Shown piece after piece: positions 614-35,200 of a stretch of DNA of 43,923 nucleotides (position 1 is the first letter of the stretch; each line of letters begins with the position of its first letter). The DNA is from a virus. A program made the position numbers and the translations under genes. The notes beneath the pieces were generated by a model. It saw only the letters and a list, made by a program, of their open reading frames with translations, was not told where the DNA came from and did no database searches. The stretch covers positions 1 through 43,923 of the IMG/VR virus record IMGVR_UViG_3300023063_000046; one strand, 5' to 3'.

Positions 614-730
614 TTAACGGGAAGTATTTCACACGTATTCTCTTTTTTAAAGAAATCTTTGTTTACTACGAAAGGGGCAGTAAGTAAAGAAACATTAACA
701 GGAAGAATTTCAAAACTGTATAAAATACAA
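550..730 (-). repeat. Imperfect tandem duplication at the nad1 3' end
   Basis: Two related blocks encode EILPVNV followed by ten to fifteen variable residues and a Lys-rich KKENTCE segment. A third partial copy of the Lys-rich part (KKENTCEN) falls after the nad1 stop, in the frame of the downstream GIY-YIG ORF. The unit is roughly 90 bp and diverged. The pattern fits a duplicated gene terminus next to an inserted endonuclease ORF. Confidence 0.65.
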
Positions 731-3700
731 GGGACTAGTATAATAAATGCAATAACTATTGGTAATAGAACAGTTCAACAATAAGACATTAATTGGTCGT
801 AACGTATACGCGGAAAAGATGCCCTCGCTCATATAAAGGTGAAGATCATCATACAAGCTTTAACTCCTATAACTATACCACCTATTACTGTTCCTATTAT
901 TGTACTGTAATTATCAAAATCAATTACATTAAAATTAGATTCATTATCTGTTAGATACATATAACTATTTCCTTCAATGAATTGTAATAAATAAAAATAA
1001 GGATATAAGAAATAATTAAAATCAAAAAGGTATCCCCCTAAAAATAATATTGAATTTAGTATACAAATAAGTATTATGCTAGCGTATTCCATGGAAATCA
1101 AATTTAACATGCAATTAGATAAAACACACCAGTCCCTTAAGGGTAAGGTGTGTTTTATAAATTGTTTAGTAGGGATTTTGACCCGACTACTTTCAATTAT
1201 ATTAGAAAATAGGCCGTAATTACGGCAACCTCTTTCGAGGCCCATTAGAGTACACCTTAAACTTCTTTTTATCGCCATTTTGGATTGGCTTTTTTTTGCA
1301 AACACCAGGCTGGAAAAAAATGAGGTCAACTACCGTCTACTCGTTGCTCTTTTACAATACCAGATTTATGGCTAGCAGGCCACCCTGATACTGATTTAGA
1401 TCCGCGATTGTCCATTTCTCTTTCGATCATATTCTGACTTGTTACCATACCTGAGTAATTAGTTCAGCCACACATAGTTTTTCAACTATTGCTTGGTACC
1501 AGAAGCTTTAGGAGGTCCCCGGAATTTGATAGTTTTAGCCAAGTTAGTGCATTCCCAATACACTATTCAGCTAAAAAGAAAAATACAAATATAACTGCTG
1601 AATGTTCTGTCATAAATCCACTAACTAACTCTGATTCCATGATTATGATTTTGTGAATTTAAACCAATTTTTGTTTAGAAAATGGGTTTAAAATAATAAG
1701 AATTATTATATTAAGATTAGAATTTAAATATTTACCCACAGTAACTTTAGATATGTTTAAATGATTAGCTAACTCTACATTATTCTTAAACTTTGCAATT
1801 AAATTGTTATCTAAGTCATAGATACCTACACCTAAAGGGTATTTATTCTTTCTTTCACTTAAAATAGCCTTAGTGGCTTCACTGTGGTTTTTCCCAAACA
1901 TTGGATTTAACTCACCGGGTTTACTAATAAAAGCAAGTGTTGTTTCACTAGTATGCTTTTTACCAAACATAGGATGATTATTCTTATCTCTATAATATTC
2001 TACCATCTTTAATTTGGATTCTTCAGTATGCTTATAACCCAAAGAGCTTGTAGCAATAGCCTTAAAATTATAAAGAGTCTCAAAATTAAATTTTTGGATA
2101 TAGGTGGTCTCTAAGTCAGTTAAAGCTTTGTTACTAATTATTTACTTTCATATGTAAAATATTCATATATATAAATATTAAATTTATCTAAGCCATATTT
2201 AACAAATGCTTTTTGTAAAGCAACATTAGACTTTTTATTGTCCAGATGTTCATTAAGTCTTAAATAAAAGTCCTTAGCGCTTCCAATATATTGATTACCA
2301 TTTACAGTGTTAATAAAAGAATAAATACCTCCTTTGTATTTTAATAATTCTTTATGATTTTTAATAGAATCTTCATTATTCAAATTGTTAATTGTTAAAA
2401 TAGGAACAGGGGTAGGTAATTGTGAGTCTGAAATCGAAGTATAATAATATCTACGCCTAGTTACCGTACAAACTTTATTATTAGGTGTCGTGTAAATAGA
2501 ACCTAATAACACTAGGCAACTCGGCTTTAAGTCGATAACAGTGGGATTCATATCTAAACTTGATTCCTAATATAATTATTTTCTATTTTAATTATAATTT
2601 GGACTATATCTTATTTAATATAAGTACTATATTAAATGATCACGTATAGTCTCTGAGGATCCTTTTTTACCTTCTACATAAGTAGAAAAACATAAGTTTC
2701 CTGCTGATTGTATCGCGTAGCGATGGTTTCCAGCATACAGTGATCTTTAGAGAGACCAAATCCTTAGTAGCCTCAGCCAAATCGAACGGTGCTCGGTTTG
2801 TTTCTGCAATTGATCCTATAAAAAATATAATAAATATTGGAAATAAAGGTACTATGTATCAAGTAGCTCTTTGGGCTTCTATTATAACAGTTATATCTAA
2901 ACTACCTGCTAATAAAACTACTAATAATATGGCAGAACTCAAAATTAATTCATAACTAATTAATTGAGCTGTGCTTCTTAATGAACCTAAAAAAGCATAT
3001 TTAGAATTAGCTGACCCAGTATTGTTATCGTAAAAGCTCTTTATCTTTTACTTCCATCTTTCACAAGATGGCTCAGACTATGTCATAGTCTTGTTTATAA
3101 CCACATTTTCATAATTAAGCAAGGAGAATAGGTTATGGACTTCCTATGCTAAATATACAAAAAAAGAACGGAACTGTGACAAATGTTTTTTACGTTGTTA
3201 TACATATACTATCTATTTAGATCTCTCCTCAGAATTTTGAGGAGAGCTGAAAATCAGAAATCCTTTGTATATTTCAAAAGAATCCAAGTATCTATTCAAT
3301 ACAGTAATGTGAATTTTGAGAACACGAGTAGCTTCTCGTTTGGTTTTAAATGGTTGATCGGGAATTAAATTTAACACGCCATTCTCACCTAACTTATACA
3401 CTCATGTCTCAGTACGGGTGTAGTGAGCTCTACTTGTATTTTTTAAAAGTTCACTTTTTACAATTGAATTTATTTCTTTTGTAAAAAAATATACAAGAGT
3501 TTTATTTTGAGAACTAGCTAATTTCGTATCTAAATGCCTAGAGATAGTACGATAATTAACTTTGAAGTGATTAGCAGCAGATAGCAAGCTAGAAAAGGGT
3601 GAATTATTAATCAATTCAAGTGTTTTAGTATCATATACTCAAACTTTGATTTTATTACCCAATTCTAGCCTTTGTGAAGACTCAATAAGACTTTCCACTT

Positions 3701-6700
3701 CTTTAGCTTCCAGTGGTCTACTAAATACATAAGTACCCTTCACCCCTTCTGCTTTCCAAGTATCTATAAAATAGGTTATAACATTACGGCTAATACCTAT
3801 AGAAGTGGATGCTTGGCTTTTAGAGGGAAAGGGGCTACCTTTTATTAATTCTAGGGTTTTGGCATTGTAAGCTCAAACCTGTTTCGCTATATTACTATTA
3901 AGCATTAGACCACTTGATGCACGATTAGATAAATTAAATGTCAACTCAAAATTTATAATGGGTTTCGAGTAGTATAACTTATTTCTAAACGGTACATTAG
4001 TATCCCTAAAAACTCCTAAAGTACCTCTAGCAATTTTTTCACCACTGCTAGCTTCCGTAATACTATTATATTTAACACATGTTTTATTTATATGTGTGTC
4101 ATATACCTCATACACATAAACAGGAATAGATTGACCAGAAACGTAAGAATCAGGGCTAGATTTAAGAGCGGCTAATTTACTAGTTAAACAGGAATAAATA
4201 GCAAATTCGGTCATTTTTGAAGAAAAAGTAGTATTTAATAAAGGTAAGTATTTTTGAAGATAGTAATTCTCTCTTGCTCCTTGTTCTTCAGAAGAACAAA
4301 CCTCTAAAATAGAAATGTCGAAATGCTCTCAACCTACTAGCTTCAAAAAGACATGTAACTTGCTGGTAGAATTAGCTAAAAGATGATTACTAAATCTTCT
4401 TTTAAACAGAGTAGTTCTACCTATGTAATAAATAAGAGGGTTATACTTATATTCTATGACATATATACAACTTTTAGATCCTCACTCTTTTAAGAACTCA
4501 GATCTTTTATTCTTATCTAAGCAATGGTAACAAGTAGCTAAAATTAAATCACGATCAAAAGGTATTACTGGAGCCTCCCTATTTTTGTACAATTCTCTTA
4601 CATATGTAGAATGTAAAGCTTGTAAATCTCAGGTATTATCATTCTCAGTAACCAGGGTAGTATAATATTGTCTTATATCTTTGAGTAACATGGTTCGTAC
4701 TCTAGAAGACATGCAAACACTACTGCTATGAATATATTCACAATCAAGGCTAATTCCCTCTATATATATAAAAAGTAAAAAACAAAGTCAGGCCATAAAT
4801 AATTGTAAAGTTTTATTAGAAAATAGGTAATTTGGAATGAAACCCAAATATAGAGCAAGACTTCGGGCGCTCGTGGTAGAATTATTGTATTTCTTATAAA
4901 CTCATCTACTAGTCGTTGAACGTTCATGTTTTAAACGAGAGGACCCATTTTTTTTTAAAAAATGGTACACTCTTATACACCATAGGCTTCCTTCTTCAAG
5001 TATAAAGAATATAACCCTGATGCATAATAAGAAAATAAATCCATGCTTCGCTTCAAGTTGACTTAGGATAAGTCTTTCTCGAAATTTACCCGATTTTCCA
5101 CAAATTATTCACATAATTGGGGGACTAGTACTTAATCCAGCCAACAATATTCCATATGTAGCTAATGAAGACATAGCTAAAAGATATAATATACCCAGAT
5201 TATAATCCAGCAACATTAAACCAGGACCATACATAAAAGAAAAATAACTTTCACACTATAAAATTTACTTACTTCTCCCCCTATTCATTCCCGATTGAAT
5301 TTCTCTGATTTTAGTGGCACCTTCTAACTTATCTTTTCTTTTTTTTACCATTTCCGAAACTAAACATCAATCGTTGAAATCTAAAGATTTAACACCTAAT
5401 ATCGGATTATTAATAAAGAAAGGTATAATTATTTCATTAACTTCAGAAAATTTTGTAGTTTTAAAATCTATTATATTTTCTTGTTTTCTTAAATAACAAT
5501 ATCCACAATTAAAATATTCTGTAATTGCAGTTAATAATACCTCATCTATTTTATGCTGAGTAATTTTAAATAATAGAGATTTAAAGGCACCTTTATCTAA
5601 GGAAACCGAGAAATTACCTTCAGCTGAAGTAAATCCCGCTATTCATTGTGAATGTGGGATTTTACTGGTTTCTGTTAAAGGACGGGGAACTGGAATAGTT
5701 TCAGGGAACATTAATTGTAATTCTTTTGATAAACCAAAATTTAAGGTTGCTTTTGTGTTTATAATCTTTTGTAAACCTTCTAAAGTCAAATGTTCTTTCA
5801 ATTCCATAATAGATACAATTTGTTTAAATAATAAATAATCTCCTCTTTTTCTAGAAATTAAAGGATATTTATCAAAAAATTTGACTAATTCTACTACCTC
5901 CTGGAATTTTCTGACTCTAAAGGCACTAGTAGATTGGTTACTACTTACAGTCCCTATTCCACCTAAACTATGTTGAATTCCTAACAAAAGGGGAAAATCT
6001 TTAACATGTAGTTTAATTTGAAAATTTAGTTGAACTTCTCAACCAAATTTATAAGAGGAACTTTTTAAGACACTACAAGAAAAACAACCTTCACCATCGG
6101 TAAACCCTGTGATAAATCAAGGGTCAATTTGTGAATTATCAATCGTACGTTTACTATCACTTAATGTAACATAATAACGACGAGTATTAACATTTAAAGA
6201 ATTAAAACCATTTAACGGTGAATCGTAGTAATTTCTAGTATACAGTTTTTTTTTACTATAGCTTATTTCTAAGCTCATTAGAGTACATCTTAAATATATT
6301 ACAAAAATCTTGTAAATATCTACAGCCGTTTACTCGTTGCTCTTTTACAATTGCAGAACAATATCTTACAACTGATTTAGATCCGCGATTATCCATTACT
6401 CTTTAGAGTATCTTATTTATTGTTACCATACATGAATAGTTAGTTCATCCACTCATATACTTTCGTATATAGTTTGGTAAAATAAGCTTTAGGACTTCCC
6501 CGGAATTTGACTATATTACCCTATAATCCCTAAGGTATAACGGCGTAACCTAACAATGAAAAAATTAAAGTTATAATAGGACCAAGAAAAAATAAAAATA
6601 TATTGGCTTGTGTAGGAGAAACATACTCTTTTAATAAAAGCTTAAGGGCATCTGCAACACTTAAGGTTATAATTATTTATATAATAATAACCTTTACCTT

Positions 6701-9302
6701 ATATAACTATAAGGGTTAGACTATATCATCATATCTCTATTTTCTTACTCTTTAGATGAGAAATATGTAAAACGTTTAGTCGTTGAGGAGTCTTTAGTTA
6801 TATCAAAAAAAATAAATTGGTCCTAAGTATCTAATAACCTTAAGAATGATATAGCAAAGTTTCCTGCTGATTGTATCGCGTAGCGATGGTTTCCAGCATA
6901 CAGTTTTATTTTTCATAGTGCAATAAATAAATACCATCCTTAGATATAAGAAACATAAAATATCAAGATATATATCAAAACACTATGGCACTTGCAGTAC
7001 AAGTTACAAAGATTTACACATACAAATATTATAAAACTAATCTATCCTTATATAATCCTTTAATAGCATTAGTGTATATAATGCTTGAAGAGTTATCATT
7101 GCCAACGTAACTTTCAGATTTTTTTGTAATATACGAGTAGTGTGTAAATGTCGTACTTGTTTCCCCTTAAATGCCTGAAGAACCCAGCCTTAAGGGTGAT
7201 ATAGCAAAGTTTCCTGCTGATTGCCCTAACACTAGGAGTTTCCAGCTTATAGTTTTATTTTATATGGTATAATAAAATATATCTCCACTAGATATAAGAA
7301 AAACATACCCAGATATATTTTAAGACACTATGGCACTTGCAGTATAAATTATTAAAAAATAATTTTGTACTCACAATATCTAACTAAAGAAAGATCATAA
7401 TAATAGAGAAAATAAAGATAGATGGTCAATAGATAAATTTAAATTATAATTTTTATCTGTTTTTATATGTTTTTAAGGAGTTTATATAAGTATGTATTAT
7501 AATTTTTCACTAAAAAAATAGAATTCCTTATAACAAGCATAAGTATCAAGGAATTTACTAATAGTCTTATGACTCATGTTTAATGTTTTAGATGCTTGTA
7601 ATTTAGATTTAAATGGTTGGTTATTATCCAATAAAGTAAATTGACCATTTAATTTAATATAAACTCACACTTCAGTAGTAGCATTAGTAGCTTTCTTAGT
7701 CTCTTTAAGAAGATTATCTCTCATATCTTCGCTAATTTCCTTAGAGAACAAGTAAACTAACCGACCGCCTTGCTTAGTTGCAAGTTTTTTGTCTAAATGT
7801 CAAGCGACAGTAGTATACATAACATTAAAATAATTAGCAGCTTGTTGCATACTTGTAAAATATGTATTATTAATTAACTCTAGTGTTTTAGCACAATAAG
7901 CTCAAACCTTAATTTTTGTATTAGGAGCATCTGGACTAGATAGATATAATTTTAGCAAACTCTCTGATTCTATATTAGTTAAAGGTCTACTAAATAGATA
8001 ATTACCATCAAACCCTTTACTTTTTCAAGAATCCTTAAAGTAATTCACTATATCATGAGTAGCACCCAAGTATTTAGCAGCTAATCCTATAGAACGAAAA
8101 GGTTGGCTATTAACTAATATTAGCTTATTTTTGGAAATAGTGTAAATCCAAACTTGTTTAGGAATATTAACATCAATAGTTAACCCTTCACTAGCTTTTT
8201 TAACTAATTTAAAAGATGAGTCTAAATTTTCTAAAGCTTTAGAGAGGAATAATAGCCCTTTAGTAGGAACATTAGTATCTAGATATCTTCTAATAGTATC
8301 ACGAGCTATACCTGTGCCTTTACAGGCTTCACTCATGCTAGTATATTTAACAAATAAAGGGTCAATATTAGTATTAAGTAATTTATAAACTCAAACGGAT
8401 ACTCTAGTACCATTATTTTTAGATAAATTATTTTTAACTAAAGATTGTTTAGTTTTTAGCACACTACTTAAAGTCTGGAAGATAGCTGTTTCAGAGAAAT
8501 GAGAAAAAAAAGTAGAATTTAATAGAGGTAAATATTTTTGAAGGTAGTAATTTTCTCTAATACCTAAATCCTTTTTATCACATATTTCAACTACACTTAT
8601 AATGAAACAATTTCAACCAACTATATTACCAAAAACATGAAATTTGTCTTTTGTTTGTTGTTTAATATGAGATCTAAATCTATAGCTAAATAAAGAAGTT
8701 CTTCCAACATAGTAAACAAGAGGGTCATATTTGTATTGAAAAATGTAAATACCTCCTTTTCCTTCTAACTCTTTTAAGAATTTAGCTCTTTGAGCTAAAT
8801 CTAAAATATCCGAACAAGATGCTAAGAGTTTCTCGGAAAAAGGTTTAACCACAGCCAATCTATCCTTATAAAGCTCTTTAATTAAGTCTAAATTATTGTT
8901 AGCTATTGTAGAGTAAAAATAAGAAGATTGTTTCCCTAAAACAACTTTTCTACCATATAAAAAACCCTTATTATTAGATAATAGAGAATTATTAGATAAT
9001 AGATAATTATTAGATATACGATAGATAAAAGAATTACGTCTAATATAGGAAATACTATTAATATCTTTTAGGTAATGTTGTGAAAGACAACATGTTTTAT
9101 TACCTAATACTTTATGTTTATAATTAACTGTAATTAATGCCTGTAATAGGCCGAATCAACCTACTGAATTTGGACCCAATCTTCTTTGCATACTAGCCAT
9201 TGTTTTTCTCTCAGCTATAGTTACAAAGGCTACAGATAATAAAACAGGAATAGTGACAGCTAATACTTCAAGAATAGACATAATTGTTGGTAAATATAAC
9301 AT
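568..9302 (-). CDS. nad1: NADH dehydrogenase subunit 1, six exons
   Basis: Membrane subunit of respiratory complex I at the quinone-binding heel. Exons read on the minus strand: 9302-9137, 6657-6533, 5231-5135, 3016-2769, 1637-1569 and 1089-568; together 1227 nt, 408 aa. Diagnostic segments are [16 protein letters not shown] in exon 1, [18 protein letters not shown] in exon 2, [19 protein letters not shown] in exon 3, [20 protein letters not shown] and [10 protein letters not shown] in exon 4, [12 protein letters not shown] in exon 5, and [20 protein letters not shown] in exon 6. All five junctions restore consensus residues; at each, the exon ends in T and the intron ends in G. TGA encodes Trp. 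The protein exceeds the usual 330-370 residues because the C-terminus carries two imperfect copies of an EILPVNV block (see repeat at 550-730). The start ATG at 9302 gives the family N-terminus [14 protein letters not shown]. Confidence 0.95.
1090..1568 (-). other. Group I intron nad1-i5, family B core, no ORF
   Basis: A 479-nt intron between LA and EYASI. It contains the whole family B set of conserved blocks: the P segment read as CCGGGGA about 1516, the GCGGATCTAAATC block about 1400, the GCAACGAGTAGACGG block about 1335-1350 and the AAGGTGTACTC block about 1248. GAGTA and TACTC of the last two can pair as P7. With no reading frame of its own, it is the minimal version of the family found in five other introns here. 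Confidence 0.8.
1638..2768 (-). other. Group I intron nad1-i4, family A core, decayed GIY-YIG gene
   Basis: The intron separates LAEA from ESELV. The ribozyme core lies next to the 5' exon: P segment with AATCAGCAGGAAAC about 2697-2711, the R block CAGAGACTATACGTG about 2640-2655 and the S block AAGATATAGTCC about 2602. The endonuclease gene follows the core. A hairpin built on ATCGCTACGCGAT in the P region (about 2710-2722) is also found in nad1-i1. Confidence 0.85.
1659..2551 (-). pseudogene. GIY-YIG homing endonuclease broken by a frameshift
   Basis: Two ORFs (2551-2138 and 2042-1659) are parts of one protein. The first has [19 protein letters not shown] (GIY and YIG signatures) and a conserved [20 protein letters not shown] segment, then stops at TAA about 2138. 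In a second frame the missing stretch continues from about 2135 through [17 protein letters not shown] into NUMOD-like repeats and a helix-turn-helix-like C-terminus. A single-base frameshift therefore separates the nuclease from its DNA-binding tail. It is probably inactive unless frameshifting occurs or the base is an error. It lies in nad1-i4. Confidence 0.75.
3017..5134 (-). other. Group I intron nad1-i3
   Basis: The intron splits the Trp codon of AGWSAN; T from exon 3 plus GG from exon 4 regenerates it. Most of it is an ORF in frame with exon 3. Core-like pairing elements are near the 3' end (about 3040-3160), including a P7-like pair of GACTATG and CATAGTC around 3065-3090. I cannot assign a subgroup from these. 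Confidence 0.75.
3213..5134 (-). CDS. GIY-YIG homing endonuclease in nad1-i3, in frame with exon 3
   Basis: Read with TGA as Trp the frame is open from exon 3 (5231) to the stop at 3213, 673 codons including the exon part, so the endonuclease probably matures from an exon-fused precursor. The nuclease segment [19 protein letters not shown] lies near 4455-4400; the usual GIY is CIY, and YIG is kept. Further on are a conserved [16 protein letters not shown] stretch and four NUMOD/helix-turn-helix-like repeats of about 60 residues that alternate V-YD--TLELI motifs with ---A---F-V----I---L. The same architecture occurs in nad1-i1, so the two are close paralogues. The C in place of the first G may reduce activity. 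Confidence 0.8.
5232..6532 (-). other. Group I intron nad1-i2, family B core
   Basis: The intron lies between VIP and YGPGL. The family B core follows the 5' splice site directly: CCGGGGAAGTCCTAAAGC about 6485-6505, the GCGGATCTAAATC block about 6385, CAACGAGTAAACGG about 6330 and AAGATGTACTC about 6280. A LAGLIDADG gene occupies the rest. Confidence 0.85.
5265..6278 (-). CDS. LAGLIDADG homing endonuclease in nad1-i2
   Basis: A 337-codon two-domain protein read with TGA as Trp, starting at ATG 6278. The first LAGLIDADG helix is [12 protein letters not shown] near residue 55 and the second is [12 protein letters not shown] near residue 213; each keeps an acidic residue at the active-site position. 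The linker [13 protein letters not shown] and the repeated GLEKI/LSKELQ-type segments are typical of single-chain intron endonucleases. The gene looks intact, with a stop just before exon 3. It may serve as endonuclease, maturase or both; the sequence cannot decide. Confidence 0.88.
6842..7350 (-). repeat. Two copies of a 160-170 nt group I core segment in nad1-i1
   Basis: Blocks 6842-7012 and 7192-7350 align over their length. Both have CTTAAG-GATATAGCAAAG, GTTTCCTGCTGATT (the P segment), a variable hairpin, GTTTCCAGC, CAGTTTTATTTT and CACTATGGCACTTGCAGT (all in plus-strand order). Only one R/S pair is visible (about 6715-6790). The hairpin inside the first copy is the ATCGCTACGCGAT type shared with nad1-i4, while the second copy has an unrelated loop. 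Confidence 0.8.
7497..9136 (-). CDS. GIY-YIG homing endonuclease in nad1-i1, in frame with exon 1
   Basis: The frame runs from the nad1 start (9302) through exon 1 without interruption to TAA at 7497, 601 aa in total, with TGA as Trp. The nuclease segment [20 protein letters not shown] is near residue 180; YIG is YVG. A conserved [17 protein letters not shown] block follows, then four or five NUMOD-like helix-turn-helix repeats to the end. It is paralogous to the nad1-i3 protein and shares its block order. Presumably it is translated as an exon-1 fusion from unspliced RNA, then processed. The gene appears intact. Confidence 0.82.
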
Positions 9303-9574
9303 GTTTTAATTAATAAAATAATCATAAAATTACATATAAATATAGTATATTTTAAATAGTTATTTTAATTATATGTGTAGAATGCATATATTATATATTT
9401 TAGTGTTTTAGTTAATGTGTTTAATGTATAGACATATATAGTCATGTATATCATACACATTACTATTAATTTATATACTATATTTTGTTTTTTTGCTTTA
9501 ATATTGTTAGCATAATATTGCAAATAACTACAAATATTAAAGGAAAATTTAGACACCTACTGAGATACAACTAA
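9303..9574 (+). other. Intergenic spacer upstream of nad1
   Basis: 272 bp of very AT-rich sequence between the chimeric ORF stop and the nad1 start. I see no tRNA, repeat or recognisable gene. It presumably holds the nad1 leader. Confidence 0.6.
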
Positions 9575-10783
9575 CTAACAATTCACAAGAACATCACCCT
9601 CATCTATCTTCATAGTTCATTTATATACCTTAAGAGGTAAGATACAACGTCCTGTGTTATGAGTACCGTGCTCAGTAGCTATCATAAGATCCATAGGTAA
9701 AATATCTCTTTCGTAATTATGTAAGCCATTAGATGTTCTCACATCATAATTTTGACACAAAAGACTATATCACCACAAATTAGGCCCTGGAAAAATACTA
9801 TGTGTAACAGGTGCATATAAATTTATACTATCATTATCAACAATAGTTGAATGATAATAATCAAGCAATCTTGGAGAAAATCCCCCAGGATAAAAATAAG
9901 GAGGAATTGTCTTACTCATTACAGCATACCATCTTTGACCGTTCCAGCTAACATAGTGTCTTGTTACGTTATTATGTAATAAAAAGTATAGTCATAGATT
10001 ATATCCTCTTGGACTATTAAGATCAATAAGACAAAATTTACTTGTGTTACCATCTTTTACCATTATTAGCTCAAATTGAATGTAAAGGTTAGGAACAGGT
10101 AGTTGTCTAAATATCTGTGCTACTCCTAATAATAAGACTCATTTCGCATATGTAGCCACATGATTACCTACATCGATAACTATACCCGGCTCTGTAGTTC
10201 CTATCACTGAGGTCGCAGCTAATACAATATCCTGTAAGTAAAACATAATATCAGCATAAAACTCCACTAGCCCTTCCATATGTGGACTAGCACTATTTTG
10301 GAAGTAAAGTCCTCAAGCTCTAGGTGCATCACAGCTAATAGTACCAAAATCAAAACTATAAATTAAAGTTGATACTAAATAGTGTATTGTATCTAACATA
10401 GGCCCAGGATATATACCTAACAATACTGTGGGTATAACAGCCAACAATGAAAAAATTAAAGTTATATTAGTACGTAATACAGAAGCAGTAATTTGAGAAG
10501 TAGGTCTTCTACTGTTTCAGTCATGTTGAAGAGCATTAGCCAAATGTCTCCCATAAGGCTGTTTAGTCCCAGGGCTATTAAAAGGAGCAGCTGCTGTATT
10601 ATTAGGGTCTTGAATTAAATATTGTCCTGTTACAGGGTCATACTGGAAACCTTGACCCAGAGCAACATTACCACCTGGATTTGCTCTTGCTCTTGCTCTT
10701 GCTCTTGCTCTTGCTCTTGCTCTTGCTCTTGCTCTTGCTCTTGCTCCACCTTGTTGAGCACCACCTTGTCCAGGATTATTCAT
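9575..10783 (-). CDS. Chimeric ORF: Ala-Arg repeat, nad1/nad4-like tail, cox2-like N-terminus, unknown domain
   Basis: A 402-codon frame read with TGA as Trp. In order it has MNNPGQGGAQQGG; about eleven Ala-Arg pairs from a GCAAGA hexamer array; a Pro/Gly/Gln-rich segment; [12 protein letters not shown], which resembles nad1 exon 2; VLLGIYPGPMLDTIHY and STLIYSFDFGTI, which match the nad4 C-terminus; CDAPRAWGLYFQNSAS and MEGLVEFYADIMFYL, which match the cox2 N-terminus; then about 220 residues I do not recognise (motifs WNGQRWYAVMSKTIPPYF, GPNLWWYSLLCQNYDVRT). The unknown part is not the copper-binding domain of cox2. In the genuine nad4 a TAG separates the tail from a cox2-like stretch; here a one-base difference removes the stop and joins the frames. 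Both TGG and TGA Trp codons occur, and the frame is intact over 1.2 kb, which argues against simple debris. Confidence 0.72.
10684..10746 (-). repeat. Hexanucleotide array GCAAGA, about 10-11 units
   Basis: A perfect (GCTCTT)n array on the plus strand, read as alternating Ala-Arg in the chimeric ORF. Copy number is probably variable between strains. A length change in steps of six would not disturb the frame. Confidence 0.9.
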
Positions 10784-11240
10784 AGATAAAACATTCCCCT
10801 TTTTTAGGATCCTCTAAAGATGAAAACCCTTCTCAGTTCATAGTAATTTTATTTGTTTCATTACTATTTATGAAACCATCTATCATATGTCTAATACCAT
10901 TTAGTATATTGTCCCAATTAGTAATGAATTTAAACCAATTAATATTTAAATCCCACTGATTAATATAAACCACAATACTACTCATATTTAAATAATAAAC
11001 AATAGAAATTATATTCATATAATCCGCAAATACATTTATACCTAAATAATAATTCACCACAAATCTAGTAACAAACCCTATAAAGAAAATAGCCAATAGT
11101 TTTAGTAAGTTAAAGTTATTACTAAATCATACTAATCAAATTTTAAAAAAAGTAATCATTTTTTTTTTAGGATTATTTAAAAAGTACCTCTGTAACGCGT
11201 ATAATGATAAAGTATCACCTACACTTTTTATAAACACCAT
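10776..11240 (-). CDS. Unknown membrane ORF with a nad4-like 5' leader
   Basis: A 154-codon frame read with TGA as Trp, starting at ATG 11240. The first 19 residues, MVFIKSVGDTLSLYALQRY, are identical to the extended N-terminus of nad4 (16534), and the identity continues upstream of the ATG. A second possible start is ATG 11159 (MITFFKIWLVWFSNN). Two hydrophobic segments follow (LLKLLAIFFIGFVTRFVVNY and IISIVYYLNMSSIVVYI), then a polar tail ending ECFIYE. The stop overlaps the ATG of the downstream chimeric ORF by eight bases (ATGAATAA), which suggests co-transcription and translational coupling or frameshifting. I do not recognise the protein. Confidence 0.6.
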
Positions 11241-11276
11241 AATTATCTTAAGGTTAATAGACTATATGAGTAAACA
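11185..11276 (-). repeat. Duplicated 5' leader cassette, copy 1
   Basis: About 85-90 bp nearly identical to 16477-16562. It covers the codons for MVFIKSVGDTLSLYALQRY, the ATG and about 35 bp upstream (plus strand CATAATTATCTTAAGGTTAA and on). It puts the same 5' region in front of nad4 and in front of the chimeric operon, so it may carry a promoter or ribosome entry signal. Confidence 0.85.
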
Positions 11277-11729
11277 ATAGTAAATTAAAATCTTTACAGA
11301 TTATTGAATAAATTTACTATTGTTATACTACTTTTTTTTATTCAGCTTTAATCAAGCGCAAAGGCGGATGATCTTCTCTTAAAAACTGCTGTACAATTAC
11401 TATTTATTGCATATACAATAATTATAAAGTAATTATAATGCAGCTTTCCCTAATTATAAAAAAAATAGGGGATTTGTTATACTATTTTTTATTTATAATA
11501 ACAAGTTAACAGTAATCTAACTGTTATTTTATAAAAGTCCAAATAAGTTTACTTATTTGGATAATACCAACGACGATGTCGTTGTACTATTGTTCTTGTA
11601 GTCAAGATAAGAACTTAACTAAAGATAACAACTTAACTAAAGATACAGATTCCTTACCGACTAGGATCACTTACCCGATGTGGCATTTGTAAAGGCAAGC
11701 TAGTTTATAAAAAAAATAGCTTAAGTACT
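11241..11729 (+). other. Intergenic region between nad4 tail and chimeric ORFs
   Basis: AT-rich. At 11276-11335 TAAACAATAGTAAATT pairs with AATTTACTATTGTTA as a long stem. Parts of this stem occur in opposite orientation upstream of nad4 (16590-16640), so the segment has been inverted in one copy. I see no gene or tRNA. Confidence 0.6.
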
Positions 11730-11963
11730 TTACCTGTCCTCTCCGATCTTAATAGATGAATCGTCACAATTCCAGCAACTATAATCTGTCCTCTCCGATC
11801 TTAATAGGTGAATCGTCACAATTCCAGCAACTATAATCATTGGATATGTCCTTAATACCGGATAAACATTCCTGGCATATTTGTGAAACGGTATCTGCAT
11901 AAGCAGATACCCCTCTGGGTTATTATTATTAAAATATACCCCTCAAGCTTCAGGCGCATCACA
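11730..11963 (-). pseudogene. cox2-like N-terminal fragment after the nad4 stop
   Basis: Directly after the nad4 TAG, in another frame, is CDAPEAWGVYFNNNNPEG, matching the CDAPRxWGxYF start of mature cox2, then about 55 unrelated residues to TAA at 11730. The end includes the two-copy repeat at 11733-11838. It has no start codon of its own. It is the counterpart of the nad4/cox2 junction inside the chimeric ORF at 10783-9575. Confidence 0.65.
11733..11838. repeat. Tandem repeat, two copies of about 52 bp
   Basis: CTGTCCTCTCCGATCTTAAT, then AG(A/G)TGAATCGTCACAATTCC and AGCAACTATAAT, occurs twice head to tail with one mismatch. It lies at the end of the cox2-like fragment downstream of nad4. 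Confidence 0.9.
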
Positions 11964-11964
11964 T

Positions 11965-14900
11965 CTAAATAGTACTAAAATCGTAACTATAGATTAATGT
12001 TGATACTGAATAGTGTATTGCATCTAAAATAAGCCCTGGGTATATTCCTAAGGCTACTGTAGGTACAACTAGTGTTATTAATACTATAAACTCTCTTTTA
12101 TTTAAATCAGGTATATTAACTGTAAATATACTTGAGTAGGATCCTCCAAATGATATTCTTTGGTACATATAGATAGTATACCCTGCAGAAAATATTATAG
12201 ATAAACTAGCCAATACCCCAAATAATGAGGATGTTTCAAATATTCCATAAAGTGACATAAATTCCCCTATAAAATTAAATGTTAGAGGGGCTCCACAATT
12301 AGCTAAACACAATATAAAGAATAATATTGCGAATAATGGCATAATTTGAGCCATTCCTCTATAGAAAGCTATTAATCTAGTATGGGATCTATCATATAAT
12401 ATACCACCTGCACAAATAAATAGTCCAGGTGAAACTAACCCATGTGCTAGACCTAAATTAATACCCCCTTCAATTCCTTGTATACTATTACTAAATACAC
12501 CTAAAAGATATACTGCTGCATGAGAAACAGAGCTGTATGCTATAAGTTCTTTAACATCTATTGTTCTTAAAGTACTAAGACTAGCATATATTATAGTAAT
12601 AACCCCTATAAGGTAAATAATATAAGTGTATTCCATATACGCCTTAGGCAATACTGGTAAAATTAACCTTAAAATACCATATAGGCTTAATTTAAGCACA
12701 ATAGCTGCTAATATAATACTTCCTCCTAAAGGAGATTCTACATGAGCTTTTAAAAGTCAGGTATTTAAAAAGATTGTTGGTGTTTTAACCGCAAAAGCTA
12801 TAAAAATACCATAAAATAAAAAAATTTGTGTAAAATAAATGAAATTTCTTTTAAATATCGTATCAAAATCAGTAGTACTCATAATAGATGACATTGCTAA
12901 AATAGATAGTAATAAAAACAGAGAACCCAACACGTACACTATATCCTTAGAGAAGGACTTTAGTGTTATCTTTAATTTAGAGTTACTTACATCCACACCG
13001 TACTAGACGGCTTAATCCATCCTTGTGTGCTGTAGCGCAATATATAACGGTTAGTAATGATTATTTGTTAAACAGAACTTCTTAGAGAATTCATATTAGA
13101 CTTTATTAATTTAATTTCAGATATTCCTTTGTCAGTTAAGTGAGCTTTTTTAGTTATTAGCATAGCCACTTTTTTAAAATCAGAATAATCTGAGGCTTTA
13201 ACACCTTTAATAGTATATTTGTCAAAAAATGGTATTATTTTATCAGTAATATCTTGAAACTTTGTTACTACCAAATACACAGCTGATCTAGATAATTTTA
13301 ACTCAATTCTACCACATTCAAAAGTAGTTATAAATTTTTCTAATAGTTCAGTATCTCTACTGTGTTGAGCAATACTAAACTTTAAACTTATAGCTTTACC
13401 TAGTTTAGTTGTAGAACAATTCCGTAAATAAACTAAAAAACACCCTTCAGCGCTAGTAAAACCTGCTAATCAATGTGGATCTTTAACATTTTTATCTAGA
13501 AGTATAGGCCTATTTACCGAAGAAATATAAGGAAAAACTAATTGTAGTTCTTCAGATAAACCTTTATTCATAGAAGATTTGATAGCAAGTATTTTATCAA
13601 ACCCGTTTTTAGTTAAATGTTCTTTACTTTTAAGTAATAAAATCGCTGATTTGAAAAGTTCGTAATCAGCCCATTTTTGACTAATAAGTGGGTATTTTTC
13701 AAAATGAGATAAAATTACACCCAAATCTTTTAAAGACGTTACCCTATATTCTAAAGTAGTGCTACCATGTTTAGTAATACTTCCTACACCAAAATAATCC
13801 TTAATCTGACATAATAAATTAAAATCCTCATTTTTTAAAGTAATCTTGAATATTGCTTGAGTACGATAACCCCTTTTGTATTCACTACTAACAAATACTC
13901 CTATTGCAAAACATCCTTCTCCATCTACAAACCCTGTTACAAATCAAGGGTTTAACTTTTTTACCTGAGATTTTTCGTCTTCAAGAGGGTAATAAATGTT
14001 ATTTACTTGCCCACTCAAAGTGGGGTTTTGTTCTGTAGATCTAGTTGAATGTATAAAAGCTTTTGGCGAAAAAAGCCCACTTACAACTTTGCCGTTATCA
14101 GGATGGAAAGGGATTTTTCTCCCTAAAACCGGTTTCCCGGCGACTAGAGTACACCTTACAAAATCTAAATTCCTAGATTTTGAAGAACCATCTACTCGTT
14201 GCTCTTTTACAGGTTTTGCCTGATTTAGATCCGCGATCACCCATTTCATTTCTATCATCTTTAGTGATGTTACCATACCCTCAATCATTAATGAGGCCAG
14301 TAAGAAAGTTTCCTTAATTACCTTGGTTACTAAAGCTTTAGGGCTTCCCCGGAGTTTGGTTCTTTTACACTGTATATCTTCTAAAAATGTGTATAAAAAC
14401 AAGTAAAAACTAGCCTTTACTCTATTATCCGATCCAAATATACCTATTAGAATAAATAACAAGGCAATCAGATTTATCATGCAAATAAATAATTTTATTG
14501 ATTCTATCCCTGCATAATCTTTTCCTTATATTAGAGAATTTTCTTACAGTGAACATGACTGCATCAGTAAAACCTGTTACAAAGTAAGGATTTAATAAGT
14601 CTAATTCATGTGAGATTTAGCTTCTAAAGTGCAGTGGAATATAGCTTTATTTTATTTATCTGGTTAGAAGGGATTCTGATTTGATAGTTTCTTTCGAAAC
14701 CCTTTAGAGTATACCTTAAATGTAATGTGGTTTCATTACATCAACTACCGTCTACTCGTTGCTCTTTTACAGCACCCTTGTAATTTAAATGCTGATTTAG
14801 ATACGCGATAATCCATTTAGTTTTCACACATTTTCTGACTTATTACTATACACGATTAATTACTTCGCCCACTTATATCCTTTCAAATATAGCTTAGTAC

Positions 14901-29200: not shown

Positions 29201-32200
29201 TCTTGAATACAACACCCCTGGTGCTGCCACGATTAAAAGGCAAGCTTCAGGAAAGTTATACAATTTTATTCGATTATATTATATGAAAAAACAAAAAAAA
29301 ATTGGAACACAAAAAAATGGAAATATTAAATAATAATTTAATACGCTACTGTATATTTATAGATAGGTTGGAACTCCTTACATACTTCTTACCATTCAAT
29401 TTATTAGTCACATGAAATAGCGGATGATCCGATATAACTTTTTCCTGATTCTGTATGCACTCAACGATAAACACCGGGTTGTCCTTTATTATCTACAATG
29501 ATTGTATTGCTTTCCTTATCTGGGTAAAGATAAGTTTTAACTGGTTCTTGACCAGAAGATGTAGACATAGTCCTTATACAACCTTTAGGCATTAAGTAAA
29601 TATTGTTTAAGCTAATAAATGTAAACCCAATCCGCCTTTTACTGTGGATTCCATGAAATCTTTTTGGGTCAGTATAAGGTGAGTTTAGGTTAAACTTAAC
29701 ACCAGCTCCAAAGCTGAAAAAAGAAAGGGAAAAATATAAAGAATCTTTAAAGAAAGGAAGACTACTCCTTATAGGAATAGTCTTAATTAACGATATAATA
29801 TTGAACAACTTTTGAACTAAACGGATAACAAATTTATCCCCAAATGACAATTTTGCTTCACAAAAAGCAGCAGCGGTAATAGAAGAGTAAATTGTAACCT
29901 GTTTAGTGTCGACGTTAGTAACCTCCACTTTCATAGAAGTTTTTTGAACCTTTTCGTTGATTAAATTTGTACTTTTGTCATCTGAGTTTAAATTTAATTT
30001 AAAAGTATATTTACCTAAAACAGGTTTATCTTGTTTCAAGTAAATGTAATGTTCAATATATCTTTTGTCAATATCTAAAGCTCGGGCTGCAGCTCTAATG
30101 GCATGGTAAGTAGTAGTAGTATTTTTTTCCAAATAAGTTACCTCAACTTCGATACCACTAGATTGACCTTTAGATAATTTAGTTAAAAATTCCGGAGATT
30201 TGAATGTCTTAGATGCAGCGATACGCATATTTTCTAATGTAGCTTCAGAATGTGTTCATCCAGATCCTCGATAAGGGCTTCCAGGTGTTTTTAATATATT
30301 ATACTCAGGAGAGTATACTTCAAAAAAGTGTTTTTCTCTAGACATAAGACTATCTTTGTCACAAATTTCTAAGATAGTAAGACTAAAGTTAGTATAACCG
30401 TACTTTAATAATGCAACGTTAATAGGCATACTTTTTTCGTTTAGTATTCTATTTACATTGTAATATTCCAAAAGCCTACGGGTTAAAGCCACGGAACTCC
30501 CTACGTACTTCTTACCATTCAATTTATTAGTTCACATGTAAATCCCAGATTTACCTTTAATATAATTAAGGATATTTAGTTTGTCTTTGTCGGCATCAGA
30601 GAAAACAGCTAAACCAGAAGAGTCTGTAGAAGAGGAACCATCACTTTTTGAAGTTGAAAACGCCCTTACGGCAATAGGTCTTAAACACTTCGTAGAGAAG
30701 GCATAATTTTTAGATGAATAATATAGGCTACGCGATCTCACGTTATGTAAGTGAAAACAATAAGATGGGACAGATCTCTTAGTAGAATTTTTAACAAAAG
30801 ATAATATAAGTCGTTAACAACTTTATCCTTTCTTTAAAGGTATATATAAACTTTGTCCCCTTATTTAAAGGTGTTTATATACTTTATCCTTTCTTTAAAG
30901 TGTTAGGTTATAAAATAGGGATAGGCTATTGTTATATCTTTAATCTTAGGTTACTTAGTTTCTCCCAAGAACCGGCTTTCCCGGCGACTAGAGTACACCT
31001 TACCATTAGTTTAATATAATGGAAGAACCGTCTACTCGTTGCTCTTTTACAATAATTTCAAATATTACTGATTTAGATCCGCGATCACCCATTCCTATTA
31101 CTAGAATCTCTAATGATATTACTATACCCTCAATCATTAATGAGGCCAGTTAAGAAGTTTCCGTCTTATCTTTAGTTATTAGAGCTTTAGGGCTTCCCCG
31201 GAGTTTGGTTCTTTAACACAATAAGAATGAGTACCTAATCTCATCTTTTTTTTATGTTTGCTGCTAATCTTAACCCTAGAGAAACATTACGAGCAAGATA
31301 TGATCGGCTGTGTTTTTTGACCTGTTAAATACATCAACAAATTTTAATGTATTTAGTATAAAGTAGTTTAAATATAAAAAATCAGTGTTTATACTAATTT
31401 TAGATTATATTTATTTTTATAAGGATTAGTACGTTTCTTGCAAAAATATCCGGATAAACTAGCCCTAGGTACACCCAAAGCTTCGGCAGCTAAAGTAAGC
31501 GAAGGGTATGTTTTTACTTCATTTGTATATATATCGGTGACCTCTACTTTAAGATATTTCCTATTAACTTTAACCTGAGTATCCGTAATCTTGAAAACAG
31601 TATACCCTTTTAATTCAACATTATCGGTTTTAGACATATTGTTTAAAAAGTATCCTAGCCGCGCCCTAGATATATCCAAATATTTGGCAGCATTTACCAT
31701 AGAAGAGAATTCTTTGGAAATACCTGTTAACTTATTAGTTAATCGGACAGGCTGTTGCTGGATAAAACTAGAAGTAGACGATAGCTCAGTGACACCGATA
31801 TCATTTGAAGGGGCTTTAGAAATAGTATAACCCTTGTAAGGCATATTATTTAATAGATATTTCCTTACGGAAACCCGAGATATATCTAGATATATACCAG
31901 CGTCTGTCATAGAAGAAAATTCTTGGGTCTTACCTGTTTCCGTGTTAGTTAACAGGACAGACTTTCTAAAGGTATTACTTAGACGCATTTTATCTAAACG
32001 TTTATCGTCAAAAGTTATACCTATTAACGATTTTCTTCTAATATCACGGCTTGATTCGGATACTATTCTATTTTTAGAAGCTAAACCTATTAACTTTTTA
32101 GCTGCTTCACTATGTTTGTAACCTAAGGGAGATCCAGCAATTTTTAATATATTATATTCGGGTTTACATTTATCAAAGTAGTATTGCTCTTTTTTAAGTA

Positions 32201-35200
32201 ATACATCGGTAGAGCAATATTCTAAAATTTCTAAACTAAACTCCGCATAACCATATTTTAATAGTGCCTTACATATGGGCATATTCCGTTTAGGGTATGA
32301 TATATGATTATAATTAAAATATTGTTTAAATCTAAGATTCAACTTATTTGAAGAACCTATATAAGTTTTACCGGACTCTCTGTGTACTCAACGATAAATA
32401 CCCGTTCGTCCTTTATTTTCATTAACGATCAGTTCTTTGTCCTGATCAGCGTTAATATAGACTCTCTCGGCCAATATTTCAGATGATGTAGACAGAGTTC
32501 TTTTGCTGCTTAGAACGTAAGTACTTATTAAGATCGAAGCCGGTCTGCTTAATAGCATACCATTAGACCGACTCTTCTTTACCACAGATTTATACTTATC
32601 TGGTGTTAGGTTGTTGCTAGTAAATATATTACCGAGGAAACTTTTTCAAATCCGTTTATAAACACAAATTTTTGTAGCTCCACCAGACCAGATCAGGTCA
32701 AAAACTATACAGAAACTTTAAATTTGAGTTACTTAATTCTACTCAAATACCACTTTCATGGCGACTAGAGTACACCTTACAGTATTTTTTTTAATACTGA
32801 AGAACCGTCTACTCGTTGCTCTTTTACAAATAATGAATTATTTGATTTAGATCCGCGATTACCCATTTCTCTGCTATTCGATCATCTCTAATGATCTTAC
32901 CATACCCTGAGTCATTAATCAGGCCAGACATAAAGTTTCCTAAACATCCTTGGTTATTAGAGCTTTAGGGCTTCCCCGGAATTTGGCTCTTTTTCACGAT
33001 TTAAGTTTCCCAACTTATTTTTATGAATTCAATAATTACTAAAAGTGGTAGTAATCCTAAAGGACACCCTGCTGGTACAAATAAAGAAAAGAATTTTAAT
33101 CCGTGTTCTTTAAACCCTAAAACAGTTGCACCTAATACTACAGTAAAGCTAAGTGAAAATGTTAAAATGAAATGTGAAGTTGATGCAAAACTGTACGGAC
33201 GACTTTTATTAGTAGTGTATAAGTAAAACTATGTATTAACTATCATAAAATAACGCCCCTAATTACTTTTTTATTATTATTCTTTTTAATTCTCATCTAA
33301 ATTTTTTTAAGATAAACTCCTGTACCTTGAAATGTAAATTGAGCACCACTATTTGCTTTTAGACTTACAGTGTAGTGGTGCAATCCTAAAAATTTCCCAC
33401 AACTTGAATAACTAGAAAAAGATTGTATTTCTTTATCAGACGATGAATCCATTAAAAGTACAGAGATAGCTTTATTATTAGATATAAACTTTTGAGTTGA
33501 CTTAACAAAGATCTTATCTTCTCTGTATTCATAATTAGAAGGTTGTTTTAGTATTTCCGTAATATCAGCCAAAAGAACACTTCTATCCTCACAAGGTATC
33601 TTAGAAGAAGATAGTCGTTGATTATTCATTTGATTTCTAACACGGTTTATTAAAGCTTCTCCTTCAAAAGTATAATGTAAACCTCGTTTAAAAATCTCCA
33701 ATAGTACTTTTCAATCTCTGTAGTCTAAATATTTTTTACTTTGTCAAACAAGGCCATCCAAAAAAGGAATGAAAACAAATTCTATAAAGTCTGGGTTATA
33801 TAACCTTAATATCGTAATTTCTCTATTTTTTGAATAAATTTTAATTGCACTTTCATAAAGATGTTTATGCTGTGGATCTTTTACTAAATTAATCATAAAG
33901 TCTTTAATAGCATGTAATAATTCTTTATTCCCTTTCTGTGTAATTGAAAAAGCTAATAGATTATCTCGGCTAGTTATATAAAAGGAACCATCTCCTTCAA
34001 TAAACCCAAGTAGTCAGTAAGAAGTTACTTTGTAGCTATGATTTAATGGCATAACTCAATCAGTTCTCTGTTTATTCCTACTATTTCCAATAGTTTCTAT
34101 AAGAGGTTGGATTTCTGCTCGCTGGCTATGCTTACTACTTTGACTATAAAGCTCGTAAGCTTTAGCAAAAGACAAGAAATCTAGATGTTTAGTTGTATTC
34201 AAATGAAAATGCCCAAAGATTGCCAAAACAACTAATAATTCTTTTTTAGCCGAGATCTTAAAAGTAGCAGATGAACCTTTAAGATCGATACTAACTTTAC
34301 CTATCTTCAAAATACTTTGAAGATAATCCAAAGCCTCTCGGTCGTCTAGGTGTAATCCTATTGTAAATATAAATTGATAAGAATTACTCCGATTACTAAT
34401 TTTTGTTATTGCAAAGCAACCTTCAGCATCCGTGAAACCTCTGAACCATTCAACAAAGTTACGAGATAAAACTAGTTCTCTGTCAAGTAGTTGAATAATT
34501 ACAAATTGTGGATCTACATGATCTTTAATTGTACAAGCTTGGGGTATATTATTTATTACTGGCGAGCTTGTTGAATAGGATCTCTTTATATGAGAAGACT
34601 GCGAGATCCAGGTGCCCCGTCGAAGCAGGTAAACCGGATCCCCAGAATAATGAGAATAATAATTATTAAGATTTAGGGTTATAAATTTATGGCTAGTTTT
34701 AACGTAATTTTTAGGGTAGTGGAAATCCCTACCCCATGCAAAACTATATGGACTACTTTATAAGACTTATAGACTTAAAAAGCTGGACTATATCTTGATC
34801 ACTCATCTGTTAAATAGTTTGAGCAACCTATCGCATGTAGTCTCTGAGGATCCCGCCTAGACATCTATAAAGACTCTTTAAGCCGGTTTCCTGCTGATTA
34901 TTCATTGTTTTATGTTTAGAATTGTCACGTCCTTTGAAAAATGAATTCCTTTTATCCCTGGCAGGGAAGGGGACATTAGTTAAGGGTCGTATCTAAACCA
35001 TTAGAAACTCCCAGCATATAGTGACATGTATCTACTTATTATATGTATCTTTTATCTTTTATATTATATATATTGTGCTTATACGATCTTGAATAATTTG
35101 CGTTACGCAGACGTAGGTACTCTTCTACTATTCATATTACTGTTAATTACTTTTATTTTTTCTAATCCCTCCTTTGTTAAATGATCTTTAGATTTAACAA

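Follow-up and report, generated by a model that had tools for sequence, protein, structure and literature searches.

Group I introns with two open reading frames (ORFs), termed biorfic, were reportedly described in Podospora anserina by Sellem and Belcour in 1994 and 1997, in which alternate 3' splice sites serve to join a startless ORF to the upstream exon. In the Podospora introns nad1-i4 and cox1-i7, the optional second ORF arrives together with a short piece of sequence that follows its stop codon and measures 292 and 49 bp, respectively (PMC4964425), and the use of alternate 3' splice sites in vivo is credited to Sellem and Belcour 1994 in passages of two later papers (PMC7902536, PMC3073962). 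The general idea has been named splicing-mediated core creep (PMC8393795). Short exon duplications have also been found in Ophiostoma introns, in one case with an 18-nt exon copy lying between two full introns (PMC12308204). Here, we describe a comparable locus in IMG/VR record IMGVR_UViG_3300023063_000046, analyzed as a single window of 43,923 nt whose genes are of the fungal mitochondrion type and were translated with code 4. Reading frames, splice junction anatomy, and comparison with a related contig indicate that the first intron of its atp6 gene is probably of this biorfic group I kind, with a choice of two 3' splice sites.

The 3' splice junction of atp6 intron 1 is present in two copies (AAAGTxG/TCCxTAxAGTTTTGCAT, with the slash at the splice site), which are identical at 21 of 24 positions and spaced 1553 bp apart. 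An earlier examination of the window by sequence inspection without database searches (the sequence-only reading) had placed this repeat at 34752 and 33199, where it is indeed found. The next best match to the acceptor 24-mer within the window reaches 15-16/24. Repeats matching at 20 of 24 positions are not rare in the contig (75 pairs, mainly between related intron cores and ORFs), and the strength of the acceptor pair therefore rests on its position and frame. When all positions between exon 1 and exon 2 were checked, exactly two G-ending acceptors, 34752 and 33199, restored GMVPYSFA from exon 1. From the first, the frame runs unbroken through a LAGLIDADG ORF (ORF2), giving a fusion of 597 codons, and from the second it enters PYSFASTSHFILTF..., the real Atp6; the sequence-only reading was correct on both the restored peptide and the two destinations. 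Both exon differences between the copies are synonymous (CCA/CCG and TAT/TAC). In group I introns, a U normally precedes the 5' splice site and a G ends the intron, and intron 1 obeys this rule with either acceptor.

A view of the site before the insert was provided by G001 (L002/L009, IMGVR_UViG_3300031938_000405), a related mitochondrial contig from a different organism. Like the window (1-43923), it is fungal mitochondrial DNA classed as virus in IMG/VR. G001 carries two atp6 copies. Copy A is intronless at the site, with GMIPYSFASTSH uninterrupted. In copy B, which has no start, intron 1 contains a core and a homologue of ORF1 (53% identity) and is free of the insert, the sequence passing directly from ...GATG to TCCTTACAGCTTTGCATCAAC. 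When the two contigs are aligned, homology crosses acceptor 1, ends at GCAT, and restarts at acceptor 2 to continue through exon 2. Three states are seen in this series, namely, no intron, a one-ORF intron, and a two-ORF intron. The comparison with insert-lacking strains that the sequence-only reading had proposed was in this way obtained in part, as G001 supplies an insert-free intron 1 and is another organism rather than a strain. A homologue of ORF2 (35% identity over 398 amino acids) sits between the two atp6 copies of G001, and the differences between the two sequences are near saturation at the codon positions and thus carry no information. The region of L009 from 700 to 13150 contains tandem atp6 copies that differ in their introns, the second without a start, plus a third 3'-end piece.

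In Allomyces atp6, a foreign endonuclease gene is said to have brought a host exon piece that replaced the resident piece. An element of this kind, in which a foreign endonuclease gene with a host exon piece displaced the resident piece and the role of the ribozyme was incidental, is an unlikely source of the present arrangement. In its favor are the truncated second atp6 copy that adjoins the ORF2 homologue in G001, the duplicated host exons seen in Tremella introns (PMC7315562), and Ophiostoma atp6-173, in which the downstream exon is duplicated at the intron start (PMC12308204). The duplication in the window, however, is just 24 nt long (17 exon bases), and no long foreign exon copy was found there. 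Because the duplication ends exactly around the splice site, removal of the insert still depends on intron 1. Displacement of an exon piece concerns origin more than mechanism and can be compatible with alternate use of the two acceptors.

ORF2 is predicted to encode an I-OnuI-like LAGLIDADG homing endonuclease. It contains two LAGLIDADG_1 stretches (Pfam E value, 7.7e-26), its relatives in PDB are I-OnuI-type chains, and both motifs (GFTDAEGCF and GFIEGDGSF) are complete with acidic catalytic residues in one chain. No ATG, GTG, or TTG occurs in frame before the first catalytic motif, and the first Met falls past that motif. Because ORF2 has none of these codons ahead of motif 1, fusion to exon 1 is the natural and likely route to its translation. 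All 106 codons from acceptor 1 to motif 1 are open, for which the chance probability by composition is about 0.001 to 0.003. It is quite unlikely that the insertion was passive, that is, that ORF2 came with a short duplication and is silent, with acceptor 2 alone in use and acceptor 1 a relic. Such a fate would agree with the in-frame stop in the homologous ORF of G001 and with the frequent decay of such ORFs, but ORF2 is intact over its whole length, the frame between acceptor 1 and motif 1 is needlessly open, and the exon copy retains its amino acids.

Scans of IMG/VR (with ORF2, ORF1, and both alignments) and of GTDB genomes (with the ORF2 alignment) yielded no confirmed relatives of ORF2. 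The sole clear homologue, that of G001, surfaced through the atp6 exon search, and the ORF1 search matched further contigs that lack atp6. The same design was considered for an ORF2-like gene in a cob intron of the window and was rejected, as that gene has its own ATG and no duplicated acceptor. A cob-intron LAGLIDADG ORF related to ORF2 (43471-41048, minus strand) is split by a nested GIY-YIG ORF (42620-41757) into the parts 43471-42659 and 41773-41048.

The 1.55-kb insert was claimed in the sequence-only reading to have no ribozyme core of its own, and a covariance-model search was proposed there as a check. This search was run, and no group I core was found. None of the group I introns is detected when Rfam is run over the full window, and of the Rfam scans the narrow-window ones alone were taken as evidence. 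In these, the insert had no group I match up to an E value of <=10, while atp6 intron 2 and the G001 intron 1 homologue, the positive controls, scored 38.6 and 29.8 bits, respectively. A custom model was built from four other cores in the window, with the intron 1 core and its G001 homologue kept out of training. It located the held-out intron 1 core at 34909-34784 with 56 bits and scored the G001 homologue at 63.6 bits; with filters off, its best score in the insert was 11.1 bits, which lay within ORF2 and was equal to background. The custom model is subgroup specific and scores GIY-YIG-type introns poorly, Rfam being the broader test, and a core split by an ORF is harder to detect with both. 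Matching of the P, Q, R, and S motifs in the insert gave poor best matches, none exceeding background.

These searches also bear on whether the locus consists of two tandem group I introns around a PYSFA mini-exon, in which case the insert would be an intron of its own whose core is divergent or escaped detection. An arrangement of this type has been proposed for cob-201 of Ophiostoma ips WIN(M) 1487, where a duplicated exon piece of 18 nt lies between two group IB modules of the LAGLIDADG type (PMC12308204). Here, however, neither Rfam nor the custom model finds a core in the insert, and just 97 nt lie downstream of ORF2. The junctions also argue against a second intron: 17 junction pairs in the duplication restore Atp6, and none of them has both a U before the 5' site and a G at the end. 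We consider tandem introns improbable. An assembly chimera is most improbable, for although the arrangement comes from one metagenomic record only, the two acceptor copies show 3 mismatches in 24 bases, the reading frame continues through the join, and the sequence on either side follows G001 in order.

The alternative splicing proposed in the sequence-only reading is thus the explanation that we favor, supported by the anatomy of the locus, the missing second core, the startless ORF2, the conflict of a mini-exon with the usual junction rules of group I introns, and the insert-free intron of G001. ORF2 and a tail of about 97 nt would have been placed downstream of the ribozyme's initial 3' splice site and ahead of exon 2, with a copy of the final 7 bases of the intron and the first 17 of the exon on each side. 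The single core (35078-34764) could then join exon 1 to either acceptor copy. Use of acceptor 2 would remove everything between and give Atp6 (junction GGT^TCCGTACAG). Use of acceptor 1 would set ORF2 in frame after exon 1 and PYSFA, giving an Atp6-endonuclease fusion (junction GGT^TCCATATAG) with the start codon that ORF2 does not have. Unspliced RNA, in which ORF1 is fused to exon 1, could be read as a third product. Judged from the DNA, both acceptors are probably used in RNA, the fusion is probably made and may be active, and ORF2 may home and may have arrived as a mobile gene.

Several observations weigh against this explanation. Intron 1 forms a short P10 pairing with exon 2 here (CC:GG), the P1 of intron 1 is unlike that of G001, and apart from the shared 7 nt the tail that leads to acceptor 2 hardly resembles the sequence leading to acceptor 1. 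Four ATA codons lie upstream of motif 1 in ORF2, and translation could start, unusually, at one of these. The ORF2 homologue of G001 is located elsewhere and has one in-frame TAA, and this family of ORFs is not always functional. A second intact atp6 may also exist outside the contig. It is conceivable, though doubtful, that ORF2 and acceptor 2 together form a ribozyme-free mobile cassette that copies the 3' splice junctions of resident group I introns. Such a cassette would carry its own exit site together with a few exon codons from the donor, and would turn the host intron into a switch by which splicing yields either the host protein or the endonuclease.

Table 1. Coordinates of the features of atp6 intron 1 and its flanking exons in the window
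Feature	Position	Strand	Description
atp6 exon 1	36560-36223	minus	338 nt, end ...GGA ATG GT; translation, Pfam ATP-synt_A match, alignment with intronless G001 atp6
Intron 1 5' part and ORF1	36222-35103	minus	LAGLIDADG ORF in frame from exon 1, stop 35105-35103
Intron 1 group I catalytic core	35078-34764	minus	RF00028, 37.5 bits, E 1.4e-7
Acceptor 1	34759-34736	minus	AAAGTAG/TCCATATAGTTTTGCAT; 7 nt intron end and 17 nt exon 2 start; cut 34753/34752
ORF2	34757-33297	minus	LAGLIDADG endonuclease ORF (predicted); 486 codons open from acceptor 1 onward; earliest Met, codon 236
Short tail, ORF2 stop to acceptor 2	33296-33207	minus	No core detected (Rfam, custom model)
Acceptor 2	33206-33183	minus	AAAGTCG/TCCGTACAGTTTTGCAT; second copy of intron end and exon start; cut 33200/33199
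atp6 exon 2	33199-33023	minus	Reads PYSFASTSHFILTF...LVIIEF; 88% identity to G001 exon

More atp6 exons lie near 31304 and 26305 on the minus strand. The cores of atp6 introns 2 and 3 (33000-32718 and 31223-30938, minus strand) are about 82% alike over 117 nt, which suggests a common recent origin. The final atp6 exon (26305-24940 region, minus strand) has a frameshifted second copy 1.2 kb downstream. Truncated additional atp6 copies have been reported in Sclerotiniaceae. Elsewhere in the window, a chimeric ORF (10813-9575, minus strand) consists of a copy of the nad4 C terminus (a 79-nt repeat shared with 12045) followed by a cox2-like segment.

The arrangement would allow an endonuclease gene with neither its own ribozyme nor a usual start codon to reside in an essential gene, the exit site of the resident intron having been doubled. 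As G001 gives both of the simpler states, the steps of origin that were put forward for Podospora can be traced in another gene. Automatic annotation may label such an insert a separate intron or misplace an exon.

Among the described introns with duplicated exon pieces, cob-201 of Ophiostoma ips has two cores, whereas one was found in the atp6 intron described here. The Ophiostoma atp6-173 and nad3-282 introns have a duplicated downstream exon, and the type of the atp6-173 intron was not identifiable (PMC12308204); atp6-173 is named for a position other than that of atp6 intron 1 in the window, and its duplication is at the intron start. The locus also resembles the Tremella fuciformis introns with N-terminal host-gene duplication, in which a host exon is copied at the 5' end of the intron. 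The Tremella duplications, however, are about as long as the exon that follows them, and no resident ribozyme was shown to splice there (PMC7315562). By the length of exon 1, intron 1 interrupts codon 113 of atp6. Sclerotinia borealis and Botryotinia fuckeliana have an atp6 intron at residue 113 (PMC4162613), the same codon by the table in that paper and the length of exon 1 here, and we found no report of a second ORF or a duplicated acceptor for that intron in PMC4162613.

The closest likeness is to Podospora nad1-i4 and cox1-i7. These reportedly share with atp6 intron 1 a single ribozyme, two ORFs, an optional ORF with a downstream fragment, and a startless second ORF, as well as a species series of no intron, one-ORF intron, and two-ORF intron. 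The window has the corresponding features: one core for two ORFs, two acceptors that restore the frame, a startless ORF in frame via the proximal acceptor, and an ORF and tail that are optional. Unlike the Podospora introns, this one resides in atp6 and has a tail of about 97 nt, and its two splice products are predicted. The atp6 case is best placed as a further member of the known Podospora-type arrangement, with comparative support that is unusually clear.
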